NCBI GenBank assembly: GCA_003971905.1
Contig: RSEE01000009.1
Span: forward strand, 930,001 to 994,000
Length of the DNA: 64,000 nt
Reading direction: 5' to 3'
Source of the DNA: Moniliella sp. 'wahieum'
Lineage: Eukaryota > Basidiomycota > Moniliellomycetes > Moniliellales > Moniliellaceae
Positions 1,901 through 63,640 of this stretch are shown in pieces. The position numbers and the translations under genes were made by a program. Numbering within the stretch: position 1 is the first letter of the stretch; the number at the start of each line of letters is the position of its first letter. Under the pieces are notes generated by a model. The model was not told where the DNA came from and searched no databases. It was given only the letters and a program-made list of their open reading frames with translations.

Positions 1901-2600
1901 TACTTTGGTACCTTGCGACCTCATCCCTCTCTGTAACTTTCACGATATTTCCCCTTTGCGCGCGCGCGGCCTCTATCCCCCACCGCCTCTCATGATACCG
2001 CACTACCTGTGTTCCCCCCCACCGACCTGCGTCGGCGGCCTGCACCTTGTCCCTATCCCCCCCTGTTGCGCTATACGTGACGCGTTTCACCCTCCCGTTG
2101 TGCGTCGGGACTGGCGTGTTATGCCAGTAGCCGGTCTTGGGCGTATTGTAAAAGCTCTAAGACCACAGTCTTAGCCCCCTATTGGGTGCGTTTTTGGCAT
2201 AAGTGGCACTTGGACTACATAGTCAAAATGTATGCGTCGAGTACTATACATGCACGCTCATCGGCATGTCAGATCCCTCAGAAAGCGCTTTGCTGAGAGA
2301 TGAAGGATGAAGCTTGAAGGCCCATCGACGCGCTCACCAGAAAAGCAGGTGATCCAAACGCGTGACCCGCGTGACGCGTGACTGGTGACCGGCCGGTGAC
2401 CGGCGGTGACCACAGCAATGATTAATCGATTAATGAGCCAACGAGCGTGATCGAACGTTGGCGTTGATGCATGATGCATGATGCATGATGGTTGGATCCG
2501 CTGGCAGGCTGACCAGTGACCGGTGACTCCGATTAAACCACCTCCTCGCTTTTTGTGTCCACCTCCCCATCTCTGAACCCGCGTGCTCACTGACCAGCCT
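1900..2600. other. Spacer with palindromic heptamer repeats
   Basis: I see no gene here. The stretch holds repeat tracts: variants of ACGCGTG and ACCGGTG at about 2358-2412, a motif AATGATTAATCGATTAATG at 2417-2435, three perfect ATGCATG units at 2467-2487, and another ACCGGTG tract near 2506-2526. A C/T-rich tract (repeated CCCCTCCT) at about 2606-2644 leads into the next start codon. Confidence 0.7.
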
Positions 2601-2644
2601 TGCCCTTCCCCTCCTCCCCCTCCTCCCCCTCCTCCCCCCTCTCG

Positions 2645-5600
2645 ATGAGCGACCAACACCGCCCATCTGCAAGGCGAAGCCCATTCGTAGGGCGACCATC
2701 TACGGTCAGACCCCACCTTCCCACTGTCCGCTACCCGCGGCACCCTTCGCGGCTACCACCACGCCTGTACCATCGGCATCCCCAGGGCCAAGCCAGCTCC
2801 GGCCTCCAGCCACTTCAGTCGATCGAGTGCACCAAGACCGAGCCGTCGTCCGCCCTCCATACCTACTCCTCGCCCCTCTGCCTCTTATTCTTCGTCCCGC
2901 ACCCTCTTTGACGCTGTGGTTGTGGCATCTCCTCCCTCTGGCTCCAAACGGACCAGGTCGCCCTCTCCTTCTGCACCCCATGAGAGCGACGATGAACCAA
3001 CTCTCTCAGGTGTACGCCAAGTTCTTCTATCCCCAAGCAGGAGAAAAGCTGTGCCTCATGGGTCTGCCCCTAACAAGCGCCTGTCCGTCTTCACCGTCTC
3101 CCAAGCCCTCACCAAATCCAGCACTGCCTTTACTCGGCCTGCACCAGTATCCGAGACACGAAAACACGAGATTCATCAGCCTGGGGACCTTCGAGCGTGA
3201 TGAAATCCATGGTGAACTTTGGAAAGTACCGTGGCAACATCCCTGATTTTGATGCTCCAGTAACTCCGCCGGGCGTTCGGAAGAGGGCAACATTGAGATG
3301 GAGCAGAGCGCAAACAAGGTGCCCGTCTGACGTCTCCGACCTCCCTCTTCCTCGCCCTCCTCCTATCCATCCTGGGTCTCGTGCACCAGCCTTGAAACCT
3401 ATTCCTGCATCTGTGGTGCCGGGATCGACATGGCCACCCCATTTCGTCCGGCTCGAACAGACCTTCCGGGCGGTAGCCATTGTTTCCTCCTTTGTGGGTG
3501 CTCACAAACACATTGTGTTATCTTTCCAACTCCTTCGCTCTTCGACTGAGAAATTGATCAAGCGGTACGTTGGACCATCCTGCTGGGGTTTGTGGCATTG
3601 TGTGGTTAACAACTCTCACCAGCCCCCTTGAGGTTGTTGATCTGGCTCAGATCAAATCGCTGTGCCCGGACATGGTTGACTTTGCTTATGCCAAGACCGG
3701 AGACGTGTCATCGCACCTGTTCGATAGCGCAGAAAGGGGGAGAAGTGCCGATTCAAAAGAACTCGATGATGCCTATGCTGTGGCCGCTTTGCGGGAACAG
3801 GGTGAAGAGGATACGGGCGATGGCGGGCAAGGATCTACTGCTGCTGCTGAGGACGACTATATTCTGATTTTTTCCTTCAAGGACGGAGAACAGTCGGCGC
3901 CCAAAGCTACTTCCACTGGCAGGTTTGAAAATTATCGCAAGCAAGCTGCCTTTCGAGCTGCTCAGGGCGACGGCAAATTCTTGCAGGGTACACCCCGGAC
4001 CTATCGGCAGCCGAAACGCAGCAGCTCATAGTGAAACGGAACACCAAGTTCTCGCAAGCCATTCGGGAACTGCTGGCCGCTTGCGCTGAGGAGGGTAAGG
4101 AGAACCCTGTTCAGCTGTTACTCGATGCAGCTGCTGATCACGTTCCCGTCCATCCCAACCTTGGTAAAGGAGGAGAGGACGGGGGGGTATTGTCCGGTCG
4201 GGACCGCAAGGCATGGCTGGACCATATCCTCCTACATCCAGAGCAGCGCCCCAGTTTGGGAGAGATCATCACTGAGCTCACCAATGCGGAAGACTACCAG
4301 GACCAAATTGTCCCGGTGGACTCAAGACAGTCCCAGCTCGAGACCCCAAATATGGGAGTCCCCAAAAGGCATTGTCGGAGGATGTGCAGGACCTCTTGTC
4401 TGACTCGGGTATCGAACATCTCTACACCCACCAGGCACATGCCTTGGACGCTTTCGCAGATGGAAAGAATGTTGTGGTGGCTACCCCCACCTCGTCGGGA
4501 AAGTCACTCATCTACCAGCTGCCGTTGCTCGATAGCTTGATTCATGGTGCCACTGCCTTCTTTATTTTCCCCACCAAAGCATTGGCGCAGGACCAGTTGC
4601 GCTCCCTCTCTACTCTTTTACGACGTCATCCTGGTCGAGGGGGAGCTACCAGTGGTGGCTACCTACGATGGAGGACACCCCAACCCAAGAACGCAAATTC
4701 CTCCGCAAAAATGCTCAAGTCATTTTTACCAACGTCGACATGCTCCACCAAGCTATTTTACCTGGCGAAGAGCTTTGGAGACGGTTCCTCACCAACTTGA
4801 GGTTAATTGTGCTGGACGAGCTACATGTGTACGATGGTCTCTTTGGTGCGCATGCTGCTCTCGTGTTTCGCCGACTGCGCCGCATCTGCTCTGCTTTGGG
4901 TAATGAGAATATCCAGTTCATCAGTTCGTCTGCTACTATCTCGGACCCGCGCTCACATGTCGAACTTGCTGGCCTTGGACCCCGATACCGTGACCCCCAT
5001 CCTTGGAGACCTCGACGGCTCACCCCAGGCGGAAAAACACTGGGTCTTGTGGAACCCCCCTCTCCTCGACGAGACGGATCCATCCCAGGGTCGAGCATCG
5101 TCTTATACCGAAGTGACTCGCATCTTTATTCATCTCCTCGAACGAGGCGCTCGCACCATGATCTTTACTCGGGTGCGGCGGCAGGCCGAGATTCTCCTCC
5201 GCCAGATACGGGAGACGTTGCTACTCTCCAATCGGGCCGACCTGGTGGATCGGGTGGCGGCGTACAGGGTGGGTATAGCCCAGAAGACCGCCGCAGGATC
5301 GAGCAATCCATGTTCACCGGCGACCTTCTTGGGATTATTTCTACCACGGCACTTGAACTGGGGATCGACATTGGTCACCTGGATGCAGTCATCATGCACG
5401 GCTTCCCTTACACCGTGTCGTCCCTGCGTCAAATGGCGGGCCGTGCCGGACGAAGGCAGCAGGGACAGTGCTGCCTTCTTGGTGGCTGAGGCTTTCCCTG
5501 TGGACCAACATTATATGCGCAATCCCCATCTTCTCTTTGACGCCCCCGCCACGCCCATGCGTATCCAGTACGACAATGACTTTCTACTCGAGTGTCATCT

Positions 5601-6854
5601 CCAATGCGCAGCATATGAGATGCCTGTCGATCCTACCACAGATGAGGAGTTCTTCGGTCCCCAGATCCATCGCTTAGCAGAGACGCGACTGGTCAAGGGT
5701 ACTGGTGAACGATCTGCTTTCTACTTTCCTGCCGAGGGTTGGCTGGACAACCCGTCGGGTCAAGTTGCGCTCCGGGGTGGAGGGGAGCCCAAATACACCT
5801 ATGTGGATGTGGGTTCGACGCGGGTACTGGAGGAGGTGGAGATGAGTCGTTCCATCTTTGAGGCGTTTGAAGGAGCGATCTTCATGCACCAGGGCCAATC
5901 GTTCTTATGTGTGCATGTAGACCATGACAAGCGCATTGTGCAAATGAGCAAGTCGGACGCTCGTTACCACACTCGTTCACGCGATCATACCGACATTGAC
6001 GCCGTTCAGACTCAACGCGTACGCTCTCTCACTAAAGATCGAGCCTACTATGGCGTTGTTAGGGTCGAATCAAGGGTATGGGGCTACTACAAAGTGGACA
6101 GGCAAGCCCATATCCTAGACGCTGTCGAGGTCGACACGCCCCCTTATGTTCGCCAGCCGCGGGATGTGGATTGATGTCCCAACTTGGCTTTTGGATGCTT
6201 TGGTCAAACAGGGCATCAACGTTGCAGCAGCTATCCACTCTGCCGAGCACGCGCTGCTCAGTCTTACTCCCCTCTTTAGCCTGGCTTCTGCTGGGGATGT
6301 TCTGACGGACTGCAAATTGCCCGAGCGGGAGCTTAGTACGTCGGGGCCAACAGCGCGCCGAAGACCGGCCCGATTGCTTTGGTACGACGCCCAGATGGTC
6401 TCCAAGGACTCTCGCACCCAGCGAGGAGCGGGACTGTGCTACAAAGCGTTTGAGCATCTCGAAACGCTGGTTAGCATCGCGATGACGGTGATTGAGCAAT
6501 GTTCCTGTGCGGAAGGGTGTATGGCATGTATTCACAGTGATACATGTGCTCATGGTAACTTGGTTTTCAGCAAGGTGGGTGCCTTGGCTATACTTCGTGC
6601 CATCCGTGGCATCAAGCCGTTCGATGAGCGCTTGGAACACCAAGGCGAACAAGGTCGAGCCACCTCTTTGCTCGGAGGCCTCTCTGTCCCAGACTGTACG
6701 GCCCGCCAGCCCCGTGCCGGCTTCCCACACCTTGCCTGTCGAGACGTTTCAGGAGACGCTTCCTCCCGATTTGTCTCTTCCCTCTCAGCGCCCTCGCTCC
6801 CCTGTTGCTACCCCGGGAGCATCTTTGGTGTATGAAGAAGTAGAGGATGAATAA
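2645..6854 (+). CDS. HRQ1: CDT1-like domain fused to HRQ1-type RecQ4-family DEAD/H helicase
   Basis: This is a 3'-5' DNA helicase of the Hrq1 (RecQ4-like) family, which acts in nuclear genome maintenance and crosslink repair. After a disordered N-terminus, about 3440-3720 encodes a winged-helix segment resembling the CDT1 geminin-binding domain (LRSSTEKLIKR, then VDLAQIKSLCP). It is interrupted by an intron at 3565-3622 (GTACGT...CAG). The helicase core follows: Walker A ATPTSSGKSL near 4480-4506, FPTKALAQDQ, DEVH-like box LDELH at about 4812-4826, SSSATI, helicase C with ALELGIDIG and MAGRAGRR (about 5433-5456). The Hrq1 C-terminal cysteine cluster CAEGCMACIHSDTC is near 6505-6545. Frame breaks lie near 3190, 3987, 4310, 4620, 4667, 4980, 5270, 5465, 6150 and 6625, all single-base. 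The start (MSDQHRPS) is uncertain; the end EEVEDE* is chosen because it keeps an acidic tail. Confidence 0.92.
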
Positions 6855-6947
6855 TATGGCATCCTTCCCTTTTCCTTCCTTTTGGGAGCTACTTGCCATC
6901 AACACCATCTCCTTCTGAGGTTGAACATGGCAAATGATCCAACAATC

Positions 6948-7962
6948 TCAAGATGAGGGCGGACCCCATCCCAGAATACGTTCGCCCCTTTTGACAGCTC
7001 GTGTCCAGATGCGCAGCCACGAGTAGTTCCACGCGGGTCGAAGGTTGGTGACAAGATCGTAAATCAGGGCACGATTGTATGCCCGATGCCGCTCTGTGTT
7101 GGCGCCAAGCCACGCTTGATAGAAATCGCTCAGAGGCACAGGTGGTGGACGAGTATCCGGGGAAGAGCTGGTAGAAGGAAGGAGAGCAGGCGATGCGGAT
7201 GCAGCAAGTTCAGGGGAAACGGAAACGTCGTCGCCTGCACCCGCCTCGAGAGCCAGGGTAGACTGCTGGACAAGTTGAGCTGGTGGCGCAGGTGGGTTGA
7301 CCTGGAAATCGTGCAAGTCACGCTCAAAGCGAGCGTTGTTGTCTCGCCAAAAACGTTGGTGGAAGGCATCAGAATGAACCCGGCGTAATACTGATTGCAT
7401 CTCGGCCACCTCGAGACGCTGGACCAACTCGCGGTAGTACCATGAATGGGGTACTTGGCGGAGGCGCAACACCCCTGCCAGGCCACTCCAGAATGGATGT
7501 TGGGAGCGGTCTGGTCAGGGGCGAGAATGGAGAACTCCGCTAGGCTGTAGGGGTGCGATTTGCGCTTGTCGGTGTCTCCTTCAGATGCGGACGAGGGAGC
7601 CTGAACTTCAAACGCCGAGCCATATCGCACAGGACGCAAGTTGCTGACAGGATCGGGGGGACCAACGATGTCGGCACCGGGCGCGGCAGCTAGATGACGG
7701 CGACTGCGACGTGGAGGATGGTAAACCGTGCACGAAGAGTGATGGAACGTGCTCCCTCCACTGGTCTCGGTAACGGCAGCGGAGGACGCATGACCGAACG
7801 GTGATGGTGGTGTTGGTAATCCACAGTGGCTATGGCAGCGGGTGCCGAGCAACAGACCTGGGTCAATTCCGCAGCGGCGCCTTCCAAGTTCCGCTCTGCC
7901 GCTGCCCGTCCCAAAGCCAGGTTAAATGGAACTGGGGCATTTACGGCCTTGAAGCTTGGCAT
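6948..7962 (-). CDS. COA8: COA8/APOPT-family cytochrome c oxidase assembly protein
   Basis: It is related to COA8 (formerly apoptogenic protein 1), a mitochondrial matrix protein needed for complex IV assembly. The family signature is visible in order: GPPDPVSNLRPVRY (about 7620-7660), then HPYSLAEFS, a helical segment QRFWRDNNARFERDLHDF matching the family's QFW..QN..F, then LSDFYQAWLGANTERHRAYN and a C-terminal WLRIWTRAVKRG. The start at 7962 (MPSFKAVNAPVP) gives about 100 residues before the core, consistent with a transit region plus spacer. Frame changes near 7800 and 7460 are needed. It lies 71 bases downstream of DPH4 on the same strand. The family call rests on motif order and spacing. 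Confidence 0.8.
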
Positions 7963-8033
7963 CTATAAGACGCCGTCACAAGGGACTGTCTCGGCTCAGT
8001 GACAAGGAGGAAAGGGTATCGTATAACTGCACA

Positions 8034-9928: not shown

Positions 9929-12900
9929 ACGGTCTCTCTTATGTGGCTTTACAAACCTTTCACAAAATATGGTGGATGCTGTCACCTCGTATGCCTCCAT
10001 GTTTGCATGGCGAATCTCATTGTCGTTGCCACCATAGCCCTTCATGCGTCGCTAGTCTCTTTTCAGGCTTACAGCTTGTCCACTACAGACCCGGATGAAT
10101 GTGAGATCTACTGATTCAAACCAGTGGTCTTTGGGAGCAGACTCGAAGATCATAAGAGGGGAACGATGTTTCAACCGCTCTCGGCGCAAGGGCGCGATCC
10201 TTAAAAAAGACGGCATGCTAACAGTCCGACCCGCGGCCTCCTCGAGTAACTAGTAATCCCTAGAGGTACGAATTGGCAGTGTCCCGCCTTACTCTTCCTA
10301 CCAAGCGAGGGCCTGAGTTATACACGGCTCCCAATCGATTAATATAATGGTGGTAGGTGCCCGTACGTGAAGTTAATTTGACTGAGTTAAGCTAGTTATC
10401 GGAGAAGAGCGCCCCAAACCAACTGTCCTCCGTTCAAGCTTCAAGATCAAACAACCCTGGTAGTGGTGGATGGGGGAACGGTGGCGACGGTGGCGACGAT
10501 GGGACGGTGGACGATGAAACGGTGACCCTCTAGTCGCTTAATAAATCGAAGCGAAAAACGCTCGGCTCGGCATACAGAAATGCGTCACACTCAGAAGCCT
10601 CCAACAGCACAGGTTTGTATCACGCTTCATGCGTCACGCGTCACGGGCCTAACTAGCGGTGTGAACCAGAGGCCAAGGAGATGGCATTGCAGAGAAGGGG
10701 GACTAAAAACCTGTGGGCTGTGAGAAACTCCGAAGTCGGAAGCATGTGGAAGGCCCGATGAAACGCGCCGGACGGCCACGTGCCACTGAAGCTTGAAGCT
10801 TGTAGCTTGAAGCTTGAAGCTCTTGAGGGTTTGAAGCTATTAGCTTGAAGCTTGAAGATTGAAGGTATAGCTCTTGAAGCTTGAAGGCCGATGGGCTCGG
10901 GACTGTTGCTCTGGACCATTGGTGTTATAGTCAACAGCTTGAAGGCAGAGAGGTACAGAATTAAGGGTGCAGACCAAGAGGTTACACGTTACATGTTACA
11001 GAAGGTACCAGTAGACCAGGTACGACCAGAGCTATTTATTGGGCCACAACGATTGAGGGCAGAAGAACAATGCAACGGCGACAGGGTTGTGGGTTGAACT
11101 CAATATTCAACGTCGTTCTTCAACGTCCAACGTTGAGCTGATAACGTCGAGAGAGACGTTGAGACGTTGAGGCCGGAAATCCTCAGAGCAATATTAGGCC
11201 TTAGGGTTCCAGTCCGGCACGGACCTCAAGTGAATCACAGTGACGCTCGCGTCGCTAATATATTCTCCGTCGTGGTTCGCTCGCTCGCTCCCTCCTCTAG
11301 TCCCACGTCACCTGTCTCATTCAAGCTCCAAGAGTGCTCTGGCTCACCACTGGGCCTTCTCCTGTAAGACCGGAGGAACCCAAGGGATTGGGTGAAGAAC
11401 CTCTGGAAATGTAGAGCATGCAATCGCGATGGTGGTGGTTCCGGTCTAAGCCTTGTGCCACACCTAGAGACAGGGGTCAGACAAGCCTGAGTGTACACGT
11501 GGAGGCTTCGGAGGACAAATCAGGGGTGAAGGGTGATGAGGCGCCTTGGCCTAAGTACGGGACCACGGGTCCCAACATCTCCCGCTTCTCTGAAGCTTCA
11601 GAAGGTTGAAGCTTGAAGCTTGAAGCTAGCGAAGGAAAAAAACAGCTTTTTGAGCAACTACGGGGGATGACTATATTCAGGGGCCTCAGGCCCCTCAGCG
11701 CCTCAGCGCCTCAGCCCTCAGACTTCAGCGCTAAAGCTTCAAGGACCTCAGCGCTTCAGCCTGTCCGAGCTCCCAGCTGTCTTCAAAAGCTTCAAGCTCT
11801 TCAAACCTGCCTAACGCGTTGTGTGTGACGCACTGAGACGGACTGTTGGGGATCGCGACGGCGGCCTGAGGCTTCCCTGAGGCCTGAGGAGGGTTTGACG
11901 ATCTGAGAGCCACTCTATATCATTTGCAAAGCTTGTAAGGCATGTTACCGGTTACGTGTTATGCATGTTACAGGTTATACTCCTGCAATCATAATAGCAT
12001 TTCTAACGCTAAGACAAGAAGAAAACGCTGCGCCTAAACAACAGTAATAAGCTCGCTCAGCCTCAGCACTCACCTCTGGCGTGTGTTGTACGCGGGTTAC
12101 TCGGTTACTAGTATAAGATTGCGGCCGCTCTAGTAGAGAGTACTGCACTCTGGCACAAAGTTGCTGAGTAGCTAGTAACTAGTAACTAGTGCCTGAGGAG
12201 CTGAGGCAGACTGAGGCGGAACGCTGAGAGGCTGAGTGCCTATCCATCCGTCTAGTGAGTGTTGGTACTGAGTAGCTCGGCTTGAAGTGTGCAGTAAAGC
12301 TAGTAACTAGTAACTAGTAACTAATAGCTGTTTGCTACAGGCATAGTCAAGTAGTAGTGACCCAGCGACTGCTATAGTAGCTGCTATGGCTGGCACTAGC
12401 TATACCTGCGCATGAAGCTCTTGAAGCGTGATAGTGCTGCATGATGCCTGATGCTTCACACGAAGAAGGCTGCAAAGCTTGAAACTTGAAGCTTGCTGGA
12501 GCTGGATGACCGGTGAGATCTGAGAGGTGGGAGGATGACCGATCGATGGGCGTCGAAGGGCGTGCGAATCACGCGTCACGCTGCCAATCACGCAGGTATC
12601 ACATGGCGCATGTGACATGTGACGTGCTGTCACAATCCTCGGGACCGGTAAAAGCAGGCCGCGCCGACCAGCCAGGCCATGCGTCGCAGGCCAGCCCAGG
12701 GCCACGTCTGGGGCTGTGCCGTGCGTGCTGGCGCGGCAGCAGCGCGCGGCAGCCCGCCTGGCCGAGGCCCACGCCGGCCACAGCCGCCGCCAACCGCCAT
12801 CGCGCGCCCAGCATCCCGCCCAGCATCCTGCGACCAGCCACCAGCAGCAGACCGCTGCAGCCCCCCGCCCCGCCGCACCACTCGCTCCCCCTGCCGCCGC

Positions 12901-16624: not shown

Positions 16625-17799
16625 GTTTGATTCTTTTATTAGTGGGTCGACAGGAAACGAGTGAATGAACTGATGGACGAAACCCCGATCCTGAGAGGCC
16701 TGATGTGAGTGACGGTGGAGGGGCCCAATACTCTGGCAGAGCCGGTGCTTGATAAAACATGAAAACTACCCATTGCCAAAACGGTGGGGAGCTGTGGAGA
16801 TAGGGGCAGGGAGCCCTTCCAATGCAGATACGCCCTTCATGAAGAGGAGGGCTCGTAGGCAATTTCAAGCCCCATCCAAAACGGCGGGTATTAGGCGGTA
16901 CAAAATAACCGGGTAGATCGGCAGTGAAAGAGGCGTGCCGAATCGAGTGAAAGAGGGAACAAACGTTCTGCCGAGCCAAAAAAAGGGAGCGACCTAGGTG
17001 CTGGGGGGAGGCGGAGAGGCTCGACACTGACACTAGCACAAACCCGCAGGCGGCAGCCAAGACGCTGGGTGGGGCACACCAGTCGCCACTGGCTGTGGGG
17101 CGCGGAGGTGCAGCAGGTGCTAACCCCCCGAGCAGCCGGCTGGTCCCGGCACGGCGGCAACAAGGGGCTTAGCGCTTAGCACCTGCTACAGTGCCACAGT
17201 GGCCGCCCTTGCGTCAATAACGTCATCCATCATGCATCATGCATCACTGTCATCAATAGCGTGCGTAATATGTGCCTGTCAGACACGTGTCTCGCTACCC
17301 CGCATCGGACGCACAGCCAATCTCTGGATTGGCTCGCAGCCCCAACTCCAGACTGCTCCCGTCCGCTGGCACCAGCCTGCCCCAGCCCAATCCAAGTTCA
17401 GTCGCCAACCTCCAGACCAGGCACGAGGCACGTGTGGCGCGTGAGCCGCAGCTTGGGCACGCGTGTACTGAGCGTACTGAGCATGCGGAACATACTGAGC
17501 ACTGAGGACTTAGTACTTGGTACTTGTACAGGCTGCGCCCCGCAGGCACCCGAGCAGCGCGTTCCAATCTCCGCTCTGGGCAGCCGCCTGTTGGGACCCC
17601 ACTGTGCTCCCTGTGGTCATCAATCATCACCATGGGCCAGCGTACCGACTGCGCTCGCATGCTCCCGGCTACACCCGCCCCTGGCAGCCGGGTAGCAGAG
17701 GCTGGGGCGGATATATAGCCCTGCTCCATCCTCCCCCCGTCCCTCCTTCCCCTCCAGCCTCCTTCACCCCCCCCCCCCCCCCCCCCCCTCCGCACCCAT
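16625..17799. other. Intergenic region with GC island, repeat tracts and C22 run
   Basis: The stretch holds a palindromic tract GCTTAGCGCTTAGC at 17168-17181, two ATGCATC units at 17229-17243, AGTACTT/GGTACTT variants near 17510-17530, a GC-rich block (17280-17720), and an uninterrupted run of 22 C at 17767-17788. The run lies 11 bases before the start codon of the carnitine acetyltransferase gene. No separate gene is seen. Confidence 0.6.
17712..17717 (+). promoter_or_regulatory. TATA box candidate for carnitine acetyltransferase
   Basis: TATATA 88 bases before the ATG at 17800, in a GC-rich background. Its position and isolation are what a TATA element would show. This is inference from sequence only. 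Confidence 0.4.
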
Positions 17800-31519: not shown

Positions 31520-32600
31520 GATGGGAAGGATGAGAGCAGTGAGAAGAGAGTGGGTAAGATGGTGATGGGGGTAGTGGAGGTGGCGATGACGAAGAAGCCT
31601 GGGAGCGGCAACTTAAGAAATATCCGCTTGATGAAATCTGCGTCGGCTTCGGGAACAGGGAGGCGGTGGACAAAATGGAGAGAGTTCGGCGGATGCCGCG
31701 GGGGCAGTGCTTTCCAGCTGGTTGCCGGCTATTCCCCGGCGGCGCTCAGCTGGCGCAGGCGGGCGCTCTGGAGAGTGGGGTGGTGCCTGCGCCCTCCTCC
31801 GTCATCGCGTCATCGATCATCGACATCTGCCTTTGTGCTGAGACTCAGCTCTCCGCCTGCGTCAGGTCCCCAACCCCCGAGGCACCCAAGAGCGGTGCTG
31901 TGCCGTCACCCGCACTGCAGCAGAGCAGCGTATCACACATACCACGCGTCAGCTAACGGCTCAGCCTGCCGGCCATCCAGCATGAATCACCGGTCAACGT
32001 CAACGGCCTTTGATCGCATCGATCACACGAGCCACATATCCCAGTCGGCCCCAGTCGGCCCCGGTCGACTCCAGTGGCTCAGGCACGGGAAGGCTTCGCA
32101 GTGGCTTCGCCCGCTTCGGCGACCACAGCCACGCGAGCATCTTCAAAGCTTCAAGCTTCTCAGAGCCCCAATATCAAGAGCTTCATGTTCTGTCTGTCGC
32201 AGTACCGGCCCACCGTGCTCCATGCTGACACTTGCGTTCCTGAAAAAGTTGGGTTACATGTCACATGCGTCACACCAGAAGCTGTTTGCGCTTGGGCCGT
32301 CAGCGGTCAGCGCGTCAGCTTCGAGCTCCTCAAGCTTCAAGTTGAAGCTTTAAGCTTCGAGCTTCGAGCAGCACAAAATGCCGGCCCACAATGTGATGGT
32401 GTTCTCATCGACATACCGGCCTTCTGCGTCACCAACTCCCCAACCAGCATGGGTGAGATGGGACATGCATGTGACATACTGACATGTGACATCACATGTG
32501 ACATGTGGCGCATCAATGTGCCGGGGGTGGCAAAAAACCTATACGGTTGAGGATTAAACAACAGATGTATGGATTGAACCTGAAGAATATACATTCAATA
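31520..32600. repeat. Intergenic GC block and palindromic heptamer tracts
   Basis: The block 31690-31930 is GC-rich. Then come AAGCTTC/AAGCTTT and CGAGCTTCG variants (32145-32165, 32325-32370), and ACATGTG units: one at 32482-32488 and a perfect pair at 32494-32507. No gene is seen. Confidence 0.6.
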
Positions 32601-35237: not shown

Positions 35238-38200
35238 ATTGAATAAAGGAGGATGAGAGATGGTTTTGTGAGCGAGGGCAGTGAGAGGATGGGTGGAAAG
35301 GGGTTGTCGTGTGTTGAATAATTGTTGTGGTGTGGAGAAAAAGGATGAACACGACGAAATGCCCGCCTATTTATGTGTTCTCCTCAATGCGACTGACGGT
35401 CGACACCTGCTGCGCGATATACCAAAACACGTATAGTGCAGGCATGCCAATCTATCCTGCCGGAGGATATGGTCTCATGATGAAGAGAGCGACGTTCCGA
35501 GATGGAGAGCATCAAGGAGCTCGGGATGGTGTAACTTTTGCACCATATACCGACCACTCATCCCAGACTTGATTGGAGACAAAGTGGAGAGGATAGAGAG
35601 TTCCGTGTTGGTAAAAGAGTATAGAGGCGCAGCTGTGGCGTCTTCTCCGCGGGGTCACTGCCCCCTAGCTTGTTTTCTGCTCCACACTTTCCCCACACCG
35701 CCCACAAACACCACAGGTGGTCCACCAGGGCCGAAGTATCCATGCCGCGGGACAAACACGGTACAGAAGGAGTCTCGCAGACCCCAGGGTCAAAACGAGC
35801 CCTATCATTCTTTGTAGCGTCTCGTCCTGTGGCCTGATCAGAGGAAATGAGGGGGGCGAGATATGCAACCCTCCTTGACTCAGTGCTGGCAGAGACGCGC
35901 ACAGTACTCCTTGATGCAGAAGCACGATGGGCGATATGGAGCCTGAGTATAATCGATCTGAATGTGAGAGGAAGCGCTGCAAAAGGTGAGTCGTCTGGCA
36001 ATACGCACGAGCAGCTCCTGGTTATGTTATAGAGAGATCAAATGTTTTTGCCGCACTCTCCTCTCTCCACTGTGAAAGCCTCAGCTACCCGTTACCCACA
36101 GGCAAATCAAATCTCCTCGGGGCAAAAATGGTCTTAGTAATGCCGGCGACGGCCTTGTTGCAAAGTTCAGCGCTTTCTAAGAGAGTATACTGGCACTGAG
36201 TACTGTCACATATATGCGTGCTGTGGTACCCGATACCGTCACATAACTAGTTGTGCACACACTCTGTATTAGGAACTAGGTACTGTAGTGCAACAGATAT
36301 CGTAGCCCCCGTGTATCCTCGGCTCGGGTAGTGGTTCCTAGCACGGGTTGCAATTCGGATCTCAGATCTCAGTCCTCAACAGCCTCAGTCCCCAGGCCTC
36401 AGGCCTCAGGGCCTCAGATCCGCGCGTTACGTTGGGGCACACCAGGTCACACTGAGGCAGACGAGGAGGCGGGCGGCAAAAGTGAAACACATCTCGCTGT
36501 GTTGGAACGCGGAACAAGTAAGACACGCATGGGTCGTCTGAAACAGTGCAAGGGCTCGCGCGGGGCGACACTGAGTACTGAGGCGACAATGGGGGCAAAC
36601 GAGTGCGGGCGCGGCAAACGACCAATGATTAATGAGCGCAATGATTAATGCGCGCACAGCGTGAGAGTCCGTTGGGTTGTGGAAGACGAACGGAAGTGAG
36701 GGAGGGATGGTTGTTCTATTCCAAGAAGAAGTCTCTCACCTCCGGAAGGATACAGAGGGGAGAGTCGGACAGGAAGGAGTGATTACGAATGCTGGCATGC
36801 CGGCGTCTTTTTGCAATCACGCCAACAGGGGTGTCCTGGGGTGGGGGGCGGTGGGTGGCAAGCGTCAACGCATGTCATGGATGTCCGACGTCTCCCGCAG
36901 CCCAGCCCAACTGATTATGTATGCATCTCACTCCATCTTTACTTTTGATGCTACTCGATACACTCATCGACACCGATCAACGACCATCATGCATCATCAT
37001 GCATCATCCATCATTCTCTCCGCATGTCAGACATCCCCGACAGGGCGGCATGTGTGTCTGAATAGTCGCTCGCGTCAAATGCCCATTCCAAATTCGAAGC
37101 CGTATGGTTGTGTGTGATAATATCCTTAGGCGCCCGGATGCCCTGGATGCTCGCTATTGTGAATGTTATGTACACACATTCTACCCTTTAGGCCTTATGC
37201 ACGATTATCGCTCCATTCTGCACGGTCCTTTTGTAGTACCCGCCTGGCCTCCAGTCCCGCATGTCGACCCATTCTTACCAGCCTCTCGTCTTCTTGGTGG
37301 CATATGCGCGACATCAAATGCACAAACCCAGCACATGGATCAGAGGAACAGGTGTGGCAAAATGGCGGAAGGGGAGATATCAACACACAGAGCCGAGACG
37401 GATCTCCAATATTACCTTTGTACCCCCCCCCCCCCTTACACCTCCACCTCCCAGCCGCTGATCCACGCGGGCCACTCTCGTTGTCCCACTGAACCTGTGG
37501 CATGGTGCATCACCTCCTTTGTTGTCAGCCGCGTACTAAAAGTCAGTTATAGGTAACACAACAGAAGCCACCAGCAGACGAAAAGTGATCAACAGTTCCC
37601 ACTAGCCCACTGATCTCTTCGTCTCCCCTCTGATTCGGGCACATTTCTTCCCTCTCACCGCGTCAGGACTCTCGCTCGCCGTCATATACTGCCCAACAAA
37701 AGTTGGATGGACTCTGGTGCAATATGGAGAGAAACAGAGTGTGCGCATCCTCGGTTATACATGCCTTGCTTTTTTCTACCCCCCTTCCCTCGCCCGCCTG
37801 TGCGTGCACGGGGTCAGCACGGATCTTTCCTCCTCTAATTATCATGTCCGACTAGAAAATACAACGACGATGAGCCCAAACTAGTGTGTTTGTCCCTGCT
37901 TTGTTAGCGAGAGTCGGACTGTGAGCAGGCCCAAGTCCATCATGGGCGAGACCTGCATGATGGGCGAGACTTATCATGTAGATCGGTCCTTACCATGGAG
38001 GAAAAGAAAAAAGGATATAGCAGTCAAGTGGGAGAAGCTGTTCTGTCGAGCGGGAAAACATGCCATGTAAAAGAAATGCGGTAGGGCTATCGACTCCTAT
38101 CGACAGAGGAAGTCGACCTCTACCGTCACACTCACCGCTGCTGCCAGACGCTCATCCGTATTCGTCCTATACAGACAAAATCCTAGACCTTGTTGACCCA

Positions 38201-44675: not shown

Positions 44676-44685
44676 TGGCGACGGC

Positions 44686-44756
44686 GGGGACAGCGTCGGG
44701 GACAGCGTTGGGGACAGCGTTGGGGACAGCGTTGGGGACAGCGTGGGGACAGCAAC
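44686..44756. repeat. 12-bp minisatellite GGGGACAGCGTT
   Basis: Between five and six tandem copies of GGGGACAGCGTT (first copy ends TC, one copy lacks a T, the last is degenerate) start 11 bases upstream of the longin-like gene's ATG. On that gene's coding strand it reads CCCC-AACGCTGT. It is not a member of the palindromic heptamer class. Confidence 0.9.
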
Positions 44757-46321: not shown

Positions 46322-48950
<2,629 letters not shown>

Positions 48951-51702
48951 CGAGGAGGGGCGGTGTTAGGCGTGGGCTGGCTTAGCTTATTATTAGCTTA
49001 CTTACTTAGTATGCGCCAGCTGTGGCCTGGTGTGGTTCTCTGGGTCGACCGCAGCTGGGCAGCCAGGCACGGGCGAGTGGGTTGGTGCCAACCAGCGCAC
49101 GCCGTCTGGGTTGACGTTGAACGTTGACGGATGAACAGCTGGACGACGCAGCTGAGCGGCTGAGCGCAGCTGGCCCCCCATGTGCCGCCCCAGCCAGCCC
49201 GCCCAGGCCAGCACTGTCCTCCATGCATGTCCTCTCGCCCCACCCGCGCTCCCGCCCGCACCAGCCGGCTGTCCGCCGCGCCCCCGCCCGGCGCCAGTGT
49301 GCCGCCGCGGCAGTAGCCCGAATTGCCGGCCGAGAAGCCCACTGCAGGCAACCCTGGCCGCACCCCCAGTGCGCCCACGGTGCACTAGGCCACATGGCGC
49401 GTGGCACACCATCCGCTGCGCCACTGGGCGCACTACTCATAGTACTCAGACTGCGTCCTGACTGAGCGCTTAACTAAGCACCACGCATGGAGCCACTGAG
49501 CACTGAGCAACGAGCTGCTCCTACATCAGCGCACCACCCGCACACACTCGCCTGGTGCGCCTGCACATGCTGCACGTGCACGGGGACGAACTTGCTCAAG
49601 CTTCAAGCTGGTTGCGTCACCGCGTCACCCAGCAGACAACGTCATCGCGTCATCGAGTCTTCTCATCCATCTCGATCACTCGGCCTGGTAGTCTCTGGCC
49701 GCAACACTGGCACGCGCCTTGTTACAGCGTCCTCTTTCTTAGCGGCTCGTGTGCATTGGGCATACCGTCCCCGCCAGCCAACCTCGCCCCCACTACCGCC
49801 GTCTCCTCTCCATGTGCTAAAACGCGGGGCACCGATGCATCTGAGGACGACCGAGCCAGATCGAGCCCCACGGCCCTGTCACCATGCGTGTACGAGGGGG
49901 TACCGCTGGTACCGCTAACCGGCTAAGCCTTAGCTCGCGGAAACAGCGGGGACCGCCTACTCTGGAGTGGAGGAGCGCCTAGCTTGCTCTGTTGTCCTAC
50001 TGGAGAGCTCGCACTACGCAGATCATCGTATCGATTATCGATTATCGATCGATTAATCAATCACACGCGCAATGCCAAGCGCCGAATAGTGCGCCTGTAG
50101 ACTAGGAGCGCTGAGGAACGGAGGTAGTCAGATCGAAGTCAAATCGCAGACCAGCATACGAAGAGAACCAAGCATTGCGCATCATGCATCAAGCTCAACA
50201 GATGAGCGAGCGTTACAAATAAACACGCCAGTTTCGACCCACGTCACGCGCCACAGGTCACCCTTGTCCTCCATGTTTGCGAGCTTCCGTTGAGCGCTGA
50301 GCAAAAACCAAAAGTCAAACACAGAGCTTGGGTTCGCAGATTCCCGATTTAGGCCATCAAGTGCATCAAGAACCGACGAGACGTCCCAGCGGTACTGTGG
50401 ACCGAGTTGAACTCGTTGTTGGCGTGTGCATGTGACGCGCGTGGCGCGTGACGTCACGATGCACGACCCTGGTTGTGGAGTTATAGACGCGTGCGCATCC
50501 ACTAGTCACTCTCTCGTCACACTGTAGTGAAGAATATCGCATGGATACTATAGCCATCAGATCTCAGAATCGTCCCCTTGGCGATTCGGGCAGAGACGAT
50601 ATGGATGCACGAATGATAGGCGCCGGGTGTGACCTTCTCGCTCACCTCTCTAAAGCCACTGCATCCTCAACGATCATCGATCATCGATATCGATCATCAA
50701 AGCATAAACTTCATATCGAAATGATCTCGCATCCCCACCCACACATCTCCCAAGTCGTCTGCCCACTACTGCAAAGTAAAGAGAGATCAAAGAGTAAACA
50801 TGGCTAATCGAAATTTCTTGCGCACAATCTTGCACAGCCTTGCCCACCTTGAATTTTGTACGTAGTCCTCACATATCTATCCGGAACCTTGTTACCAGCA
50901 TTTTCGATTAGCCATGAAGAGAGAAAGAGAAAAGAGAGATCGAAGACGCCTATCATCTCGGCCTCCTATTCCCCAGCTTCGATGAAGCGAGCGAGGGGAC
51001 GACGAGGATGCATAGTAGGAGCATTGAGCGTTGTATCATGTCATTGAATTGTTTTGGAGCGTGTGTAGACGGTCAAAGCGCTCCCCCTCTCCCCCTCTAA
51101 GCTTTCCTTTCGGCCACCACCTTTTTGCCTCGACTCGAAAGAAATGGGGGAGTGCTCGCACCGCCGACCATTAATGGATCAAAACTGCATGAAAACTTCG
51201 TGCGCCTCTTTGTCATCTCCTGCCTCTCACGAATTTGACAAACAGCAAAAAGTCAGAGTGCACATAATGTCACTGGCGCTATCTGACCTTGGTCTCTACG
51301 ATCCCGAGCGCAGGTTTATTGAGTCGGTGTACACCGTGTTCTGTACCCACAAAACAAAACTGCATCATGCCAATCGCATCATTCGTCATCAACATCATCA
51401 ATCGTTATCACAATCGTCGTCAACATCATTGTGGCGCTCTGACGGAGCCCGAGTTCTTGCTTATTCTCTCGCACTTTAAGGCGCCCCTCTCTCCTTTTTT
51501 GATTAGGATTTCCCGTGTTGCAAGGACGGTGCCAACCGACTACTCCTTCCCTCAGTTCTCTCCAGGACCGCAGTAGGCGTTCATCGTTGTACAGTTAGTT
51601 CATTGGAAACGTAGTCGACAAGAGAATGTGGAATGGAATGGAGAATGGAATGGAATGAGAAAGAGTAGGAGAGAGCTGACCAGGTGATCACCTGATTGAC
51701 GA
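48951..51702. other. Gene-poor region: GC island, heptamer tracts
   Basis: No gene is recognised. 48980-49460 is a GC island with nested GGCTGAGCG and AACGTTGACG motifs. AAGCTTCAAGC is at 49598-49609, GCGTCACC/GCGTCATC at 49615-49660, ATCGATT units at 50030-50057, ACGCGCGTGGCGCGTGACGTC near 50437, and ATCGATC units at 50675-50695. 50800-51600 is AT-richer, with open frames of no known family. Confidence 0.5.
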
Positions 51703-53327: not shown

Positions 53328-53800
53328 CGCTAACCGGATGGGTATTGCACGTACTCGGCCATCGTGTGTGGTGGGGGCAGTGAGCGGTTCGCGTGGAGTA
53401 TGAAGAGGAGAAGAAGGGGGAGAGGGGAGGGAGGGGGGGGGGGGGGAGACGGCGAGGGCGAAGGTGAAGGTGGTGGTGAGTATAGGCAGTCGCGCACTGC
53501 AAATGCTCTGCTTGCCCCCAAAGCCAGCGCCTCCCAGCATAGCGCCTCCCAGCATAGCGCCTTCCCCGCACTTTCCGGCACAACCCGGGCAGGTGCATGC
53601 CGGTGCCTGGATTAGATAAGAGGGAGTAGCCCGCAGCTGGAATAGCAGCCATACCGAATCGAAAAGTAGTAGGCGTGACGCGTGACGCGTGAGAGGGCGG
53701 GAGACGCCAGGAAAGTGTTTAAACATTCATTTATCTCACCGGTTCTGATCGATGATTGGGATGATCGGACGGCGTTTTGCTGCCTGTAACAAAAAAATGT
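53328..53800. other. PDK upstream region with tandem repeat and G14 run
   Basis: A G run of 14 at 53433-53446 (C-rich on the PDK coding strand) and a 15-base unit AGCGCCTCCCAGCAT present about 2.5 times at 53526-53563. Two perfect ACGCGTG units lie at 53678-53691. No separate gene is seen. Confidence 0.6.
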
Positions 53801-58795: not shown

Positions 58796-60880
58796 GCTGG
58801 GCGAGGAGCGTGGCGGCGGCGGTGGTGGCGGGGCGAAACGAGGGCGACGGGCTGGGCCGGACAGGCTAAAGGCGGGAGCGCAAGGGTTGAAGATGCCTGC
58901 GGACCCTGCTAGGGCCGTGGGACAAACTTATGGCGTCTGAATCTGAGCGGCTGAGCGCTGAGCCTCAGCGCTCAGTGTATCCTGCACGGGGCAGGCTGAG
59001 TAACCGAGTGCGCTGCTGCCCGGGCGCTCGGACAACAGTGTGAGCATTGCACGTACTGTGCTAGCGCCAGACGGGCAACGTACGTAACGCGTAACCGGGT
59101 AACCCTGTTTAACCACCCTTGGCGTTGCACACAGCCCACGCGCTTACCGCACGGGGAGTGCCATGCGTCACACACCCAGCCGCTGTCTGTGTAGTGCGGC
59201 GTCCTGGCTGCGTCCGCCTGCTGCCGCCCAGTGCCCAGCGCCACGGGCGGCTGCCACCCTCGCATGCACCGGTTTGCGTGCTGCCGCGCCACAGCAGCAG
59301 CGCACGCAAACAGAAGAGGCCTGGTGCAGCATGTAGACAGCCAAGCACCCACCCGCACGCACCGCGCCGCCCTCCCACCCAGCCACCCTCCCCGCTCACC
59401 AGCCGCCCTGCGCCTCCGTCCAATCGAAGCCTGCAGCATCCGGCCAGTCTGGGCCAGTGCACCCTGCCCACCGCGCCCATCCCGATCCGGGCCCTGTTGA
59501 CACCCTGCCGGCACAGCAGCAGTGTCCAGCCCCAGTAAGCCCCAGTAGGCTGGGGCTGGTACCGGGGAAGAATAACCGGCAACCGGTGACCGGTGACCGA
59601 GGGGTGGTATATGTCCTGGCATCTAGATACCGCAAGTAACGTGGCCCTGGAGGCATCTTGGATTCAATATTCAATCTCCAGAGCCTTGAGCGCTTCAGCG
59701 CACTCAGCCGGAAGAACCTGCGTGTCGTCCTCTGGCCCGCGTACCCCCTCCCGAGTCTTCGCTACTGAAATTACTGAAACCAGCCGCCACGATCGCCAGT
59801 CGCAGACATCGATCAGGATTGCATATTGCTTTGCTGCATATTGCATTGACCGCATGCAAATGCCTTACGTAGCGCGTGGCGCCTTACGCGTTACGCCCTG
59901 CGGTTGGTAATCGACGCTGCCCTTGACCTCTCGTTTCAACTGAAGCTCCACCGTCGTAGCATGCGACAAGAACCCATTGGCAGAGTGGGAACCGGGAACC
60001 AGCAGTCGATAATCGGTCGTCTAACGTTTATTGATTATCGAGCTAGCTAGTAACTAGTAACTAGTAGCACAGTACTTCCGTGTCACAAGCCACATATCAC
60101 TATCACACACTACGTCTTCCGAGGTATTGGCTCGTCACGCGTCACGCATCACGCGTCACTCGCGCCATAGCTCACGCGCTCTGGGAGGATCACCGAATCA
60201 CTGTCACTAGTGTCACTAGCACTAGTCACTAGGTCAGGTGTCACTGGTTCCACGAGTTGTGAGAACGTACCCAAAGGCTTTGCGGCGTTAACGTTTAACG
60301 TTTAACATTTAACGTTTGCCCTTCGGTGGTTACTTATTGCAAGACCGGGTACCGGATACCGGGGTTACCGGTTACCCGCGGTTACCTACTGGTTGTCGCT
60401 CCCATGGCCACGTCACTTGTCGTTTCAAATTTTACGATTCAAGGTGAATTCCAACGGCTCAAATTTGAAAGGCCTGTAAAGCTTGTAAAGCGCCAACGCT
60501 TCCAAATCGAAAGGCCCACGTGCTATGGAGTGCGGGGGTCCCTACGGGCTGATTCAGCTGTGGAGCAACCATCAGCTTCAAGCTTCAGAGAGGCGCGAAC
60601 AAGGAAGGTAAAGTAGTGGGCCCCAAAAGGTTTTAAGCACTTCTTCAAGGAAGGAGACAGGAGACAGAGAGGAGACAGAAGACAGAGAGGGGAGATAATT
60701 GCGAATAGGAGGAGTACCAGCAGAACCATTCCTGTCTATAACCACACAACAATCATTAAGCGCGAGAGCGTCGAAATACGGTCCATACATGTGCTTAGGA
60801 TCACGAGGCGATCGCCACTTTCCACCGCCCACGCCTCCTAAACCGTCAGCAAGGCCGGCAGCGTCAGACTCTGTCGCACG
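58796..60880. repeat. 2-kb spacer: GC island and dense palindromic heptamer tracts
   Basis: After a C-rich SREBP leader (on the coding strand), AGCGCTG/AGCGCTC units lie at 58954-58973, then a GC island at 59110-59560. The densest heptamer region of the window follows: ACCGGTG pair 59582-59595, ACGCGTT near 59889, ACTAGTA pair 60053-60068, ACGCGTC-ACGCATC-ACGCGTC 60137-60157, ACTAGTGTC variants 60207-60235, AACGTTT x3 plus AACATTT 60290-60317, and ACCGGTT/ACCCGCGGTT 60343-60390. No gene is seen. Confidence 0.75.
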
Positions 60881-61900
60881 ACCGGTTGTTCAAGGTGTAC
60901 TATCGATCTGGGTCGAAGAATGACGGGGATACTACTGTTGCTGATGACGTATTCCGTCACTCTGACCTCTCTTCCACGGCTCTAGCTCTTCCGTGGCTGT
61001 GCTTCAGACTTTGTATGGGAGCTTTCGGCCCGTGCTCGAGCTCATACCCAGTTAGTCCGATCCACCGTTGGGCGCGCGCTTGGAGTCCGACGGGATTAAC
61101 ACCGCATTCGCGAGACTTGGTGCCCCCTGTAGACCCACGTTGGGCCGCCGCGGCCTCCTCTCTCCCCAGCTCTTAAGGTTCGCGGTGGCTGTGGGGGCTT
61201 GTGAGCGGATCTATGTCCCTCATAATGCCCCTCTCCGGGCAGCCATCCTTTTGCAGGCCCGCGACTCAGCGCCGTAAGGACGTAAAGCATCAGGCGTAAC
61301 AAGACGACTAGGTGTACGGTCGCACTACTGACTGCCCCCATTTCAAGGTCTGTCAACTCACTTTTGACGATGGAGTACATTACGATGCGAATTCCTGATC
61401 GGTGTGGGAAACAGGTTGAGCAAGATGATGCACTTTTCATCCGTTTGCTCACGCGAAGGACACGGTGCTGTGACTAGCTCACCAGTCTGTCCACAACGTC
61501 TTCCGCTACCATATGGCCTGCCGCGCGACTTGTGTGATCTCAGACCGTGGTCTCACCTTCACGAGCCACTTTTGGCGAGCCCTCCGGTTCAGGTGACTTG
61601 GGCATCAACCCCAGGATCGTAAGTACAGCGTATCATACATCACCCCCAGTTGAACAGACGACAGACAGAGAGTGACCAGGATATTTTCGTTGCTACGGGA
61701 TGAGCAGCAGTGTATAACTGGGTTGATCTTCTCCCCACGGCCGAGTGCTTACAACTCATCCCCCAACTCCAGTAGCACAGGCGCATTGCCCCCGTTTCTT
61801 TGTGTACGGTTACCCTCCCCGATAGCGGGGGAAGGGGTCAAACTCTTGATGCGTTTCAAATAGTAGTTGTATCCAGCTGAGGCGGGGGGACCCTTCAGGT
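60880..61900 (+). mobile_element. Degenerate Ty3/gypsy retrotransposon pol fragment
   Basis: Pol remnants appear in order across shifting frames. First is an RNase H end (FKVYYRSGSKNDGDTTVADD, where live copies have YRPGK.N..AD.LSR). Then come the start of the integrase zinc-binding region (IYVPHNAPLRAAILLQARDS), the integrase core (LSKMMHF, GLPRDL, SDRGLTFTSHFWRAL, STAYHTSPPVEQTTDRE), and a tail AYNSSPNSSSTG (live: FAYN.S.N.STG.SPF). Stops interrupt several segments, including one soon after SDRG..FWRAL, so it is inactive. Gag, RT and both LTRs are not seen. The sequence from 61900 to 62880 may belong to the same element but is unreadable. Confidence 0.82.
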
Positions 61901-63640
61901 TAGAGAAGGGAAAGGCAAGGGTTAGTGAACACATTCGGGAGACCCTTTCCGAGTCGGGAACGAGAGGAAATCAAACTGGCCACAGTGCGCTCCGTCCCGA
62001 TAGTAGACCAAACATGAGGAAGAACATATGATAGTCCCACGGACAAGGGAGGAAGGCCTATCGTCCCCAAAAGGATAAGGGTCGATGGTCGCTTTGTCTA
62101 TCCGCCATGGTAGAACCGTTCCACCATCGTGACTAGGTTGGGGCTGGAACCGAGCTCTGTTAAGATTGGACAAAGCGAAGGGACTTCGATCGGATCAGAT
62201 TGGCGGAAGCCCGTAACGTGATGGGATGTTTAGGTCTCACTTCTAATACGACTGCATCGGGGAGATGGCATCGCTATTAGATCGGCTGACCCATCTAGAA
62301 ACCGAGGCGTACTCGGGACGTGTAGTTGAGCCAGAGCCCCATTGAGCATTTTTGGGAGCAGAACTTTTGTCGAGGTTAGGAAGGTAAGGAAGTCGGCTTT
62401 CTACCCAAACTCTTCGCCGGCCCCTCTTTTTCCGTCGACGGTGACATGAGACACCAGGCTCCTCTCACACAAAGGTGTGTCCTCACGCCTAGAGAAACGG
62501 ATTCCCTTTATATCAAGTGGGCGAGGCGCGGTAGTGTATATACTTCCCTGTCGTCTGAAAACAGGCATGGGTGCATGGGTCTGGACATTATCATCATTAG
62601 TAGATCCGTGTGCCACCACGCGCACAACGAGTGTGGATATATATGAAAGCATCCCCCCCTTTATCCGTGGCGCTATATCTCGGCCCCTCGTTCCACCAAA
62701 CTGTCCGCGGCCATCGCCTTGGCTGTGTCTGGGGCTACACCTTCAGTGCAGACCTTGGGGGCAAAAGCGAAGTAGCGACCTTGGGTCCTCCTGCCAAATA
62801 GGACACCAAGCACCATTACCGGGTGCCCCCTTTTGGTCGATGGTCGATGCTCAGGCATGTTGAACGCTTCATGTGGCCCGTAGGGACTAGGTAGGGACTA
62901 GGGAATGGGCACTGGTTAAAATCTAAAAGTTGATGATTCAATGTTTAACGTTGGGTGAGGCTCTAGGCGCCACACACCAACCCCATGCCCGGCCGACGGA
63001 GGCCGCATCTTAGAGGCACCCCGGCACTGTGGATGGCCGGCGCGGGGTGGCTCGATGACGTCGGGTCTGGGCTCGGGGCCGGCACACAGGCGGGGCGCGA
63101 TGCATGCTGCTAGATGATCGATGATCCATCGATGCGCCTCGGCCGTCAGCGCCGGAACACTGGTGCTGTGCTGCGGCTGATGGCGCTTGGATCTCAGCGA
63201 GCTCCGATCCAGATCCAGATGCCTGGTCGATGATCGATGATCGATCATCGACGTCGAGGCGCAGAGGGCGCCACAGACCACAAGGCGGTACCGGTTACTG
63301 GGTTGCCTGCCGCACGGGGGCAGTGGGGCAGCCATCCGCACTGCGTCGGTCCCGAGTCGCCGGCCTGGTCCAGCCGCAAAAGCGCTGCTGGGGCATTTTT
63401 GGTCCCCACCACCACTGCTGCCCCCCTGGCCTCGCCCCTCTCCCCTTTCCCCTCCTCTGCCTCCCTGCCCGCCATGGAGCACAACGCCATGCCGCTGCGC
63501 TTTGGAACGCATGTTGCGCTGTCTGGCGAGCTGGCCACATTGCCCGCCCAGCGTCAGCCCCGCCTGTCGTGTGCGCGACACCTGCTCTGCCCCGCTGCTC
63601 CCCCGTCCGCGCTCGGCCGTGCTCAGTGGCAGCCACATGC
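61901..63640. other. Unassigned region right of the gypsy relic; heptamer tracts and GC block
   Basis: Possibly more of the retroelement up to about 62880 (a short open stretch MASLLDRLTHLETEAYSG starts near 62263). Then a GTAGGGACTAG duplication near 62880-62900, an AACGTTGGG remnant at 62947, ATCGATG tracts at 63115-63133 and 63226-63250, and a GC-rich block at 63260-63640. No gene is called. Confidence 0.45.

Follow-up and report, generated by a model that had tools for sequence, protein, structure and literature searches.

What produces tandem arrays that share an architecture but no common unit? The question is raised by a 64,000-nucleotide window in the genome of the basidiomycete Moniliella sp. 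'wahieum' (contig RSEE01000009.1, positions 930,001–994,000, here C9:930001–994000; part of a 69.5-Mb assembly in 223 contigs), in which an earlier sequence-only reading described tracts of 7-bp units, each an A-palindrome-T hexamer plus one constant spacer base. We find that the basic unit is a 7-bp insertion templated by its flank, and consider it probable that a cut-and-paste DNA transposon (or its transposase), with a 7-bp duplication centred on TNA and hairpinned flank ends, left the tracts behind as excision footprints.

Period-7 tracts and their TXA frame

All ten tracts quoted by the sequence-only reading lie where it placed them; eight are perfect, and two (60137–60157, with ACGCATC as the middle unit, and 60290–60317, with AACATTT) carry one mutated unit each. 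The window contains 63 primitive exact period-7 runs of at least 14 bp, of which 40 consist of a palindromic hexamer plus one base, all 40 with A..T as the outer pair. Fifty first-order Markov simulations gave means of 3.7 runs, 0.38 palindromic runs and 0.02 with A..T, so the excess over composition controls is real and stronger than had been claimed. The rule is absent at period 5 (12 of 85 runs palindromic in the window versus 14 of 53 simulated). It extends to 24 loci of 10 kb taken at round-number genome positions elsewhere, in which 52 of 125 period-7 runs are palindromic, 48 of them with A..T. About 13 of the 16 possible A-palindrome-T hexamers had been reported; 14 occur among the exact runs of 264 kb.

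The hexamer-plus-spacer unit is nevertheless the wrong parse. When all 64 trinucleotides were compared as flanks of palindromic 4-mers (N4), TAA, TCA, TGA and TTA were far ahead, with 49–59% of N4 palindromic; the next best were TAT (2/11) and CAT (21/146), and the median was 5%. With an unequal X on the two sides of N4, 4–28% were palindromic. At other spacings of TGA the counts are near expectation at gap 2 (32/114) and gap 6 (4/246), and are 2/145 at gap 8 and 2/155 at gap 10; for TAA at gap 2, 14 of 32 are palindromic where a quarter is expected. The frame is thus a fixed TXA, between copies of which the cores may change.

Exact 12-mers of the form TXA-RR-R'R'-TXA-RR (primes mark complements) number 291 on both strands of 304 kb, against 1–30 for each of the other 15 outer-letter pairs; two-sided units and array units are each counted twice in both-strand counts. 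The window alone has 103, against simulated means of 0.2–1.2 (60 Markov simulations for each of orders 1, 3 and 5). Decay is evident at one mismatch (389 versus 56 simulated and 106 in an A.T control) and at two (1,002 versus 740 and 861). Collapsed to tracts, there are 64 in the window and 121 in the other loci (240 kb), the latter extrapolating to about 35,000 in the whole assembly. Genome-wide, TGA(N4TGA)x3 occurs at 3,340 + 3,108 = 6,448 positions, overlaps included, against 620 + 578 = 1,198 for the pattern read backward; the TAA counterpart gives 463 + 489 against 198 + 193. Fifteen of the 16 possible N4 palindromes are represented among the 12-mers, and the missing core, TATA, occurs once among the first 100 of the 6,448 positions.

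This variety bears on the suggestion that the arrays have a shared structural or binding role. Selection for protein-binding or structural arrays would fit the absence of exact tracts (0 of 64, compared by eye) from the seven Pfam-supported open reading frames (ORFs) at six places in the window (ten ORFs were scanned; three had no match). Almost any palindrome is used, however, as set by its neighbours (15 of 16 dinucleotides, as described below), and several tracts are empty or of different length in a second copy of the region, though others are common to both. Such a role is not needed to explain the tracts, and we regard it as highly improbable.

Flank-templated insertion and empty sites

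Isolated palindromic units disclose the event. Among 152 in the 304 kb, 95 match one flank, 35 both and 22 neither; 95 further palindromic units sit in arrays. After removal of 2 near locus ends, the 93 one-sided units have an opposite flank at chance (L1 = R1' in 25%, L2 = R2' in 26%) and use 15 of the 16 R1R2 dinucleotides. These matches identify a 7-bp insertion, TXA-R1R2 to TXA-R1R2-R2'R1'-TXA-R1R2, or its mirror image. The basic event doubles X and makes its 4-bp palindrome from the adjoining dinucleotide and the reverse complement of that dinucleotide. The predominance of one-sided units rules out a simple 7-bp duplication of a palindromic target, and the constancy of X while cores change rules out a 4-bp palindromic duplication with a TXA insert. 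A 3-bp TXA duplication around the terminal bases of a transposon is ruled out too, because isolated units carry adjoining flank bases and elements with TNA duplications are not enriched. Two-sided units without a longer core match number 19, where our own arithmetic from the 93 one-sided units predicts about 6. Palindromic targets therefore look favoured, as expected if complementary overhangs join well, although decayed arrays could contribute.

Arrays largely obey the same rule. The core changes within one array in 16 of 60 chains (from the first 100 of the 6,448 positions, all on contig C1). We scored 16 C1 arrays, comprising 15 of these mixed chains and L048 (the chain at C1:138073, piece L035, is unscored). 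In 13 of 16 the dinucleotide at the right flank matches the first half of the final core, and in 10 of 16 that at the left flank matches the second half of the initial core; chance is 1/16 for each. Three arrays (L036, L040 and L041) have a clean left-templated block followed by a right-templated block, the order predicted by repeated hits on TXA.

A search with window positions 8600–13000 recovered a collinear second copy on contig C18 of the same assembly, which is 95% identical to window 1502–16621 over 14,786 aligned bases of a global alignment. Empty sites in one copy face filled sites in the other at 12514, 11194, 2417, 2299, 12252 and 2520, as excision footprints predict, and the fixed-length duplication and the palindromic (P) nucleotides at the joint were likewise found (Table 1). 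All six pairs were located exactly in both copies; the stretch around 11194 is misaligned in the global alignment, so that pair rests on other comparisons, and the product classes at 12252 and 2520 were assigned by reading the alignment. Exact 7-bp indels number six in 11.9 kb of blastn alignment, of which three are single scars (12514, 11194 and 2417), one is the array step at 12172, and the remaining two fall in a CCT-rich repeat and in sequence that aligns poorly. Further tracts are common to both copies, some with substitutions, which indicates that the activity spans the split of the copies.

The empty sites also decide against slippage of hairpin-forming 7-mers as the origin of the tracts, which the sequence-only reading had offered as an example of a shared generating mechanism. 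Whole-unit length differences between the copies (at 2465 and 12172) resemble those of slippage minisatellites, and identical units are probably added in that way. The empty TGAGA site facing 12514 lacks the inserted R2'R1', however, so slippage alone cannot yield the first unit, which, unlike that of a minisatellite, is no copy of an earlier tandem sequence. Unlike cores stand in register, and the nearest flank is the template for most of them. Hexamers with other outer pairs would be expected to slip as well, yet account for only 3 of the 72 palindromic runs of period 7 in 264 kb; at period 9, just 1 of 6 runs in the window and 2 of 29 in 264 kb are palindromic, none with A..T. Slippage as the origin is accordingly very hard to credit. 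What stands of the earlier proposal is a shared mechanism in place of descent from one satellite, with hairpin chemistry probable.

Product classes and a proposed excision mechanism

We classed each insertion between two TXA as (a,b), where a is the length of a prefix of R1R2R2'R1' and b that of a suffix of L1'L2'L2L1. Among exclusive non-array products, (4,0) alone accounts for 34 and (0,4) alone for 38 (12 and 11 more also fit a neighbouring class), palindromic sites for 35, (4,2) and (2,4) for 6 each (plus 3 each shared with (3,3)), (2,2) for 10 and (4,4) for 1; simulations gave 0–1 for each. The sums over the 15 other outer-letter classes are 23–31 for (4,0)/(0,4), 11 for palindromic sites, 6–7 for (4,2)/(2,4) and 255 for (2,2). 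By exact boundary, most of the excess has the tip after R2, with P = 1 or 2 and a resumed copy that starts at most two bases upstream of TXA: for TNA versus the sum of the 15 others, P2/b0 112 versus 59, P2/b1 10 versus 9, P2/b2 18 versus 12, P1/b1 42 versus 132 and P1/b2 22 versus 28. At b of at least 3 there is no clear excess (2 versus 8 for P2, 5 versus 50 for P1), which limits the duplicated segment to 7 bp. Among 43 non-palindromic 14-bp runs (plain 7-bp duplications), 8 place T.A in the register predicted, against 0–3 for other rotations. Together, the product spectrum and the plain duplications define a 7-bp site, NN-TNA-NN, with palindromic bases gainable at both ends.

From the insertion rule, its one-sided templating, the 7-bp limit, the TNA specificity and the empty sites, we infer a mobile element, hairpins, a nuclease and a joining step. 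Insertion would duplicate the 7-bp target L2L1-TXA-R1R2 (consensus NNTNANN). At excision, each flank end, bearing the 7 bp, would be capped by a hairpin flush with the element. Nicking by a hairpin nuclease, usually two nucleotides 3' of the tip, would turn each end into TXA with a 3' overhang of 4 nt, one reading R1R2R2'R1' and the other L1'L2'L2L1. If end joining then retained one overhang, the joint would read TXA-R1R2R2'R1'-TXA or TXA-L1'L2'L2L1-TXA and the site would have gained 7 bp; nicks at the tip or 1 nt off would give the rarer classes. New hits at any TXA of a scar would lengthen it in register with the palindrome of either flank, and identical units would be added by slippage. A zero-loop palindrome of two bases, copied from one end of a duplicated site of fixed length, is characteristic of hairpin-capped ends that have been nicked off-centre. 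In excerpts of PMC3528771, the P nucleotides of V(D)J joints have a mean length of 2 nt, with two-base ones dominant, and the position at which Artemis mainly cuts a hairpin is 2 nt 3' of its tip; a review, in the passage available (PMC13041557), places opening at the apex or 2–4 nt to either side.

Table 1. Scars, arrays and Pfam-supported ORFs of the window, with the state of the C18 copy where compared
Feature	Window position	Strand	Remark
Right-type scar TGAGATCTGAGA	12514..12525	+	C18:637489 empty, TGAGA
Right-type scar TTAGGCCTTAGG	11194..11205	+	C18:636451 empty, TTAGG
Empty palindromic site AATGATT	2417..2423	+	C18:627433 filled, 14-bp scar AATGATTAATGATT
GATGAAG x2, plain 7-bp duplication GA-TGA-AG without palindromic nucleotides	2299..2312	+	C18:627303 single GATGAAG
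Scar TGAAGCTTGAAG	2308-2319		Adjoins GATGAAG duplication; in both copies
Empty site CTAGTGAGTG	12252..12261	+	C18:637226 has CTAGTGAGTACTAGTGAGTG, 10-bp insertion fitting a=4, b=3
CCGGTGACTCCG	2520..2531	+	C18:627526 has CCGGTGACCCCGGTGACCCC, 9-bp insertion fitting a=2, b=4
(TGATGCA) array, three cores	2465..2490	+	Two cores in C18
Scar CGTGACGCGTGA	2370..2381	+	Common to C18
TGA-AGCT-TGA cluster, scars and arrays	10787..10886	+	Rearranged relative to C18
TAA-CTAG array	12172..12190	+	One unit longer than in C18
TGA-AGCT array (earlier AAGCTTG)	11606..11627	+	Exact period-7 run
TAA-CTAG array	12300..12323	+	Exact period-7 run
TCA-TGCA array	17228..17246	+	Exact period-7 run
TGA-CATG scars (earlier ACATGTG)	32480..32507	+	Tract quoted earlier
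TCA-GGCC array (earlier AGGCCTC)	36393..36410	+	Exact period-7 run
TTA-TCGA array (earlier ATCGATT)	50029..50049	+	Exact period-7 run
TGA-CGCG array	53673..53692	+	Exact period-7 run
TGA-CCGG array	59582..59599	+	Exact period-7 run
TCA-CGCG array, one mutated unit	60133..60159	+	Tract quoted earlier
TTA-ACGT array, one mutated unit	60288..60317	+	Tract quoted earlier
TGA-TCGA array	63227..63245	+	With last of 64 exact 12-mer tracts in window
HRQ1-like helicase, two ORFs	4536-6174		Pfam
L3 ribosomal protein ORF	8867-9928		Pfam
Acyltransferase ORF	18988-19932		Pfam
WD40 ORF	28686-29441		Pfam
SDR ORF	34375-35370		Pfam
BCKDH kinase ORF	52167-52952		Pfam

Two other readings do without an active transposon. 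A repair or replication polymerase at a nick near TNA might displace a short flap, switch to that strand and copy R2'R1' back before the flap is ligated, a one-event 7-bp insertion that would account for the retention of one palindrome and not two, and for the lack of a visible element. We think this unlikely, because it leaves unexplained the T..A pair (the 291 exact 12-mers against 1–30), the symmetric two-base limit around TNA and the in-register plain duplications. Still less likely, in our view, is a domesticated or host-encoded transposase-like nuclease that makes programmed breaks and no longer needs a mobile element. Many scars, an element that is not visible and V(D)J-like junctions suit this account; the same 7 bp at both ends would need an earlier insertion or fill-in, and the data point to no gene. 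That requirement for the same 7 bp at both ends would point to prior insertion, and with it to a transposon.

Several observations nonetheless weigh against excision of a transposon. The model does not account for the excess of palindromic N4 at unequal-X pairs (up to 28%), for the extra cores of L033 and L038, which hold three unlike cores outside the flank rule, or for the flank misfits (3 of 16 on the right, 6 of 16 on the left). Without slippage or target preference, random second hits would seem to produce fewer arrays than there are. The tip position is not entirely fixed, since a tip after R1 with P1/b2 is raised too (28 versus 146 over 15 classes). Joints that lack both palindromes show hardly any excess ((2,2) alone 10; simulation 1; 255 over the 15 other classes), and joints retaining both ((4,4)) were seen once, where independent hairpin opening should yield more; their scarcity calls for an added step in which overhangs are joined face to face and the sequence of one strand survives. 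No convincing element with an NNTNANN duplication and inverted repeats was seen in the 304 kb (0.44% of the genome), and inverted-repeat elements with a 3-bp TNA duplication yielded two TCA cases, no commoner than other triplets. Genome searches with Pfam models for hAT (two models), KDZ, Plavaka, MULE and DDE_Tnp_4 returned no matches; in 4 of 6, control genomes were without a match too. The sole family of miniature inverted-repeat transposable elements (MITEs) seen, at window 50799, is ruled out as the scar maker, as none of the 21 flanks listed fits NNTNANN (read by eye). Cut-and-paste scars accrue without a rise in copy number, so a handful of element copies could suffice for the transposon that we favour.

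Relation to known systems and meaning of the scars

Each of the closest known systems resembles the scars in some respects and differs in others. Elements of the hAT superfamily hairpin their flanks at excision with a 1-nt offset, which would make the palindrome odd; those of the main classes here are even. The extra base before P2 is the complement of R3 in 4 of 21 cases, and in 1 of 12 where R1 differs from R2; odd hairpins of the hAT type are thereby ruled out as the main route, although such an offset fits 7 of 10 cases of one small class, P1/b2. The hairpin looks flush, not offset by one base. Transib and RAG duplicate 5 bp, in contrast to the 7 bp here. The bacterial Tn10/IS10 resembles our site in its odd palindromic TNA-centred target (NGCTNAGCN) and differs in its 9-bp duplication and element-side hairpin.

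V(D)J joints, as the available text of PMC3528771 presents them, share the flush flank hairpin and P nucleotides of about 2 nt. Excerpts of PMC12730594 describe 7-bp-duplication transposons in basidiomycetes: hAT7 of rust fungi shares the 7-bp target-site duplication found here, as does Kyakuja (KDZ) of Laccaria, also in Basidiomycota, which is given CA..TG ends and no inverted repeats. Neither the hAT models (PF05699 and PF14372) nor the KDZ domain (PF18758) matched the genome, and the controls had no match either. Dada duplicates 6 or 7 bp, and many Dada elements, unlike the scars, target multicopy RNA genes (portions of PMC8869645). NuwaII (PHIS), with target C|TNA|G, shares the TNA centre and occurs in fungi, but its duplication, according to part of PMC4482050, is most likely 3 bp and possibly 5, whereas products here reach 7 bp; DDE_Tnp_4 (PF13359) had no match in the genome and matched one control.

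Other repeats were encountered in the same searches. One 951-bp stretch (L028:5189–6153) with a GATGATT duplication and inverted end bases (9 of 12) is a weak element candidate, of which, by our own arithmetic, about one is expected by chance. The MITE-like repeat (window 50799–50916) is 118 bp, A+T-rich and bounded by 15-bp perfect inverted ends; the window copy lacks a 7-bp duplication. Its ends match 140 times genome-wide at up to one mismatch, perhaps about 70 copies, with 94–100% identity among the copies listed, and Rfam rules out 5S rRNA as its identity. Self-BLAST of the samples for dispersed families found a repeat of about 860 bp resembling a long terminal repeat (LTR) and pieces of about 230 bp, none with an NNTNANN target. 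The former (L013:8970–9833, L017:409–1286 and L012:9273–10000) has TGTCACGGGC ends, with 5-bp duplications in two copies. At window 11362–11584, a repeat of about 220 bp, with more than 30 copies listed at 96–99% and some paired about 5.3 kb apart, looks like a solo LTR. Matches often fall in contig pairs (C47/C10, C9/C38 and C72/C123), as if haplotypes or homeologous sets had been assembled apart, and the ribosomal protein L3 region has seven matches at 92–100%, including that of the window (C9, C18, C27, C5, C95, C97 and C109). Among proteins of solved structure, the L3 product is matched best by fungal ribosomal proteins. A tRNA on the minus strand (53800–53891), perhaps intron-containing, was called by Rfam and not by ARAGORN.

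We found no earlier description of such arrays among the matches listed in the open-licence PMC literature. It is possible, and we put it forward tentatively, that this Moniliella carries a still active, undescribed transposase with V(D)J-like chemistry (flush flank hairpins, opened 2 nt from the tip) and a 7-bp NNTNANN target, acting at sites throughout the genome, nearly invisible as an element and possibly domesticated, that has left tens of thousands of scars chained into pseudo-satellite arrays. Excision footprints are normally studied singly, in reporter assays. With some 35,000 extrapolated tracts, one can read off which target an unseen element uses, where its hairpins are opened and what end joining yields, and its activity can be dated against haplotypes. 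The tracts also show how tandem arrays of unrelated units can form between genes without a founding satellite.

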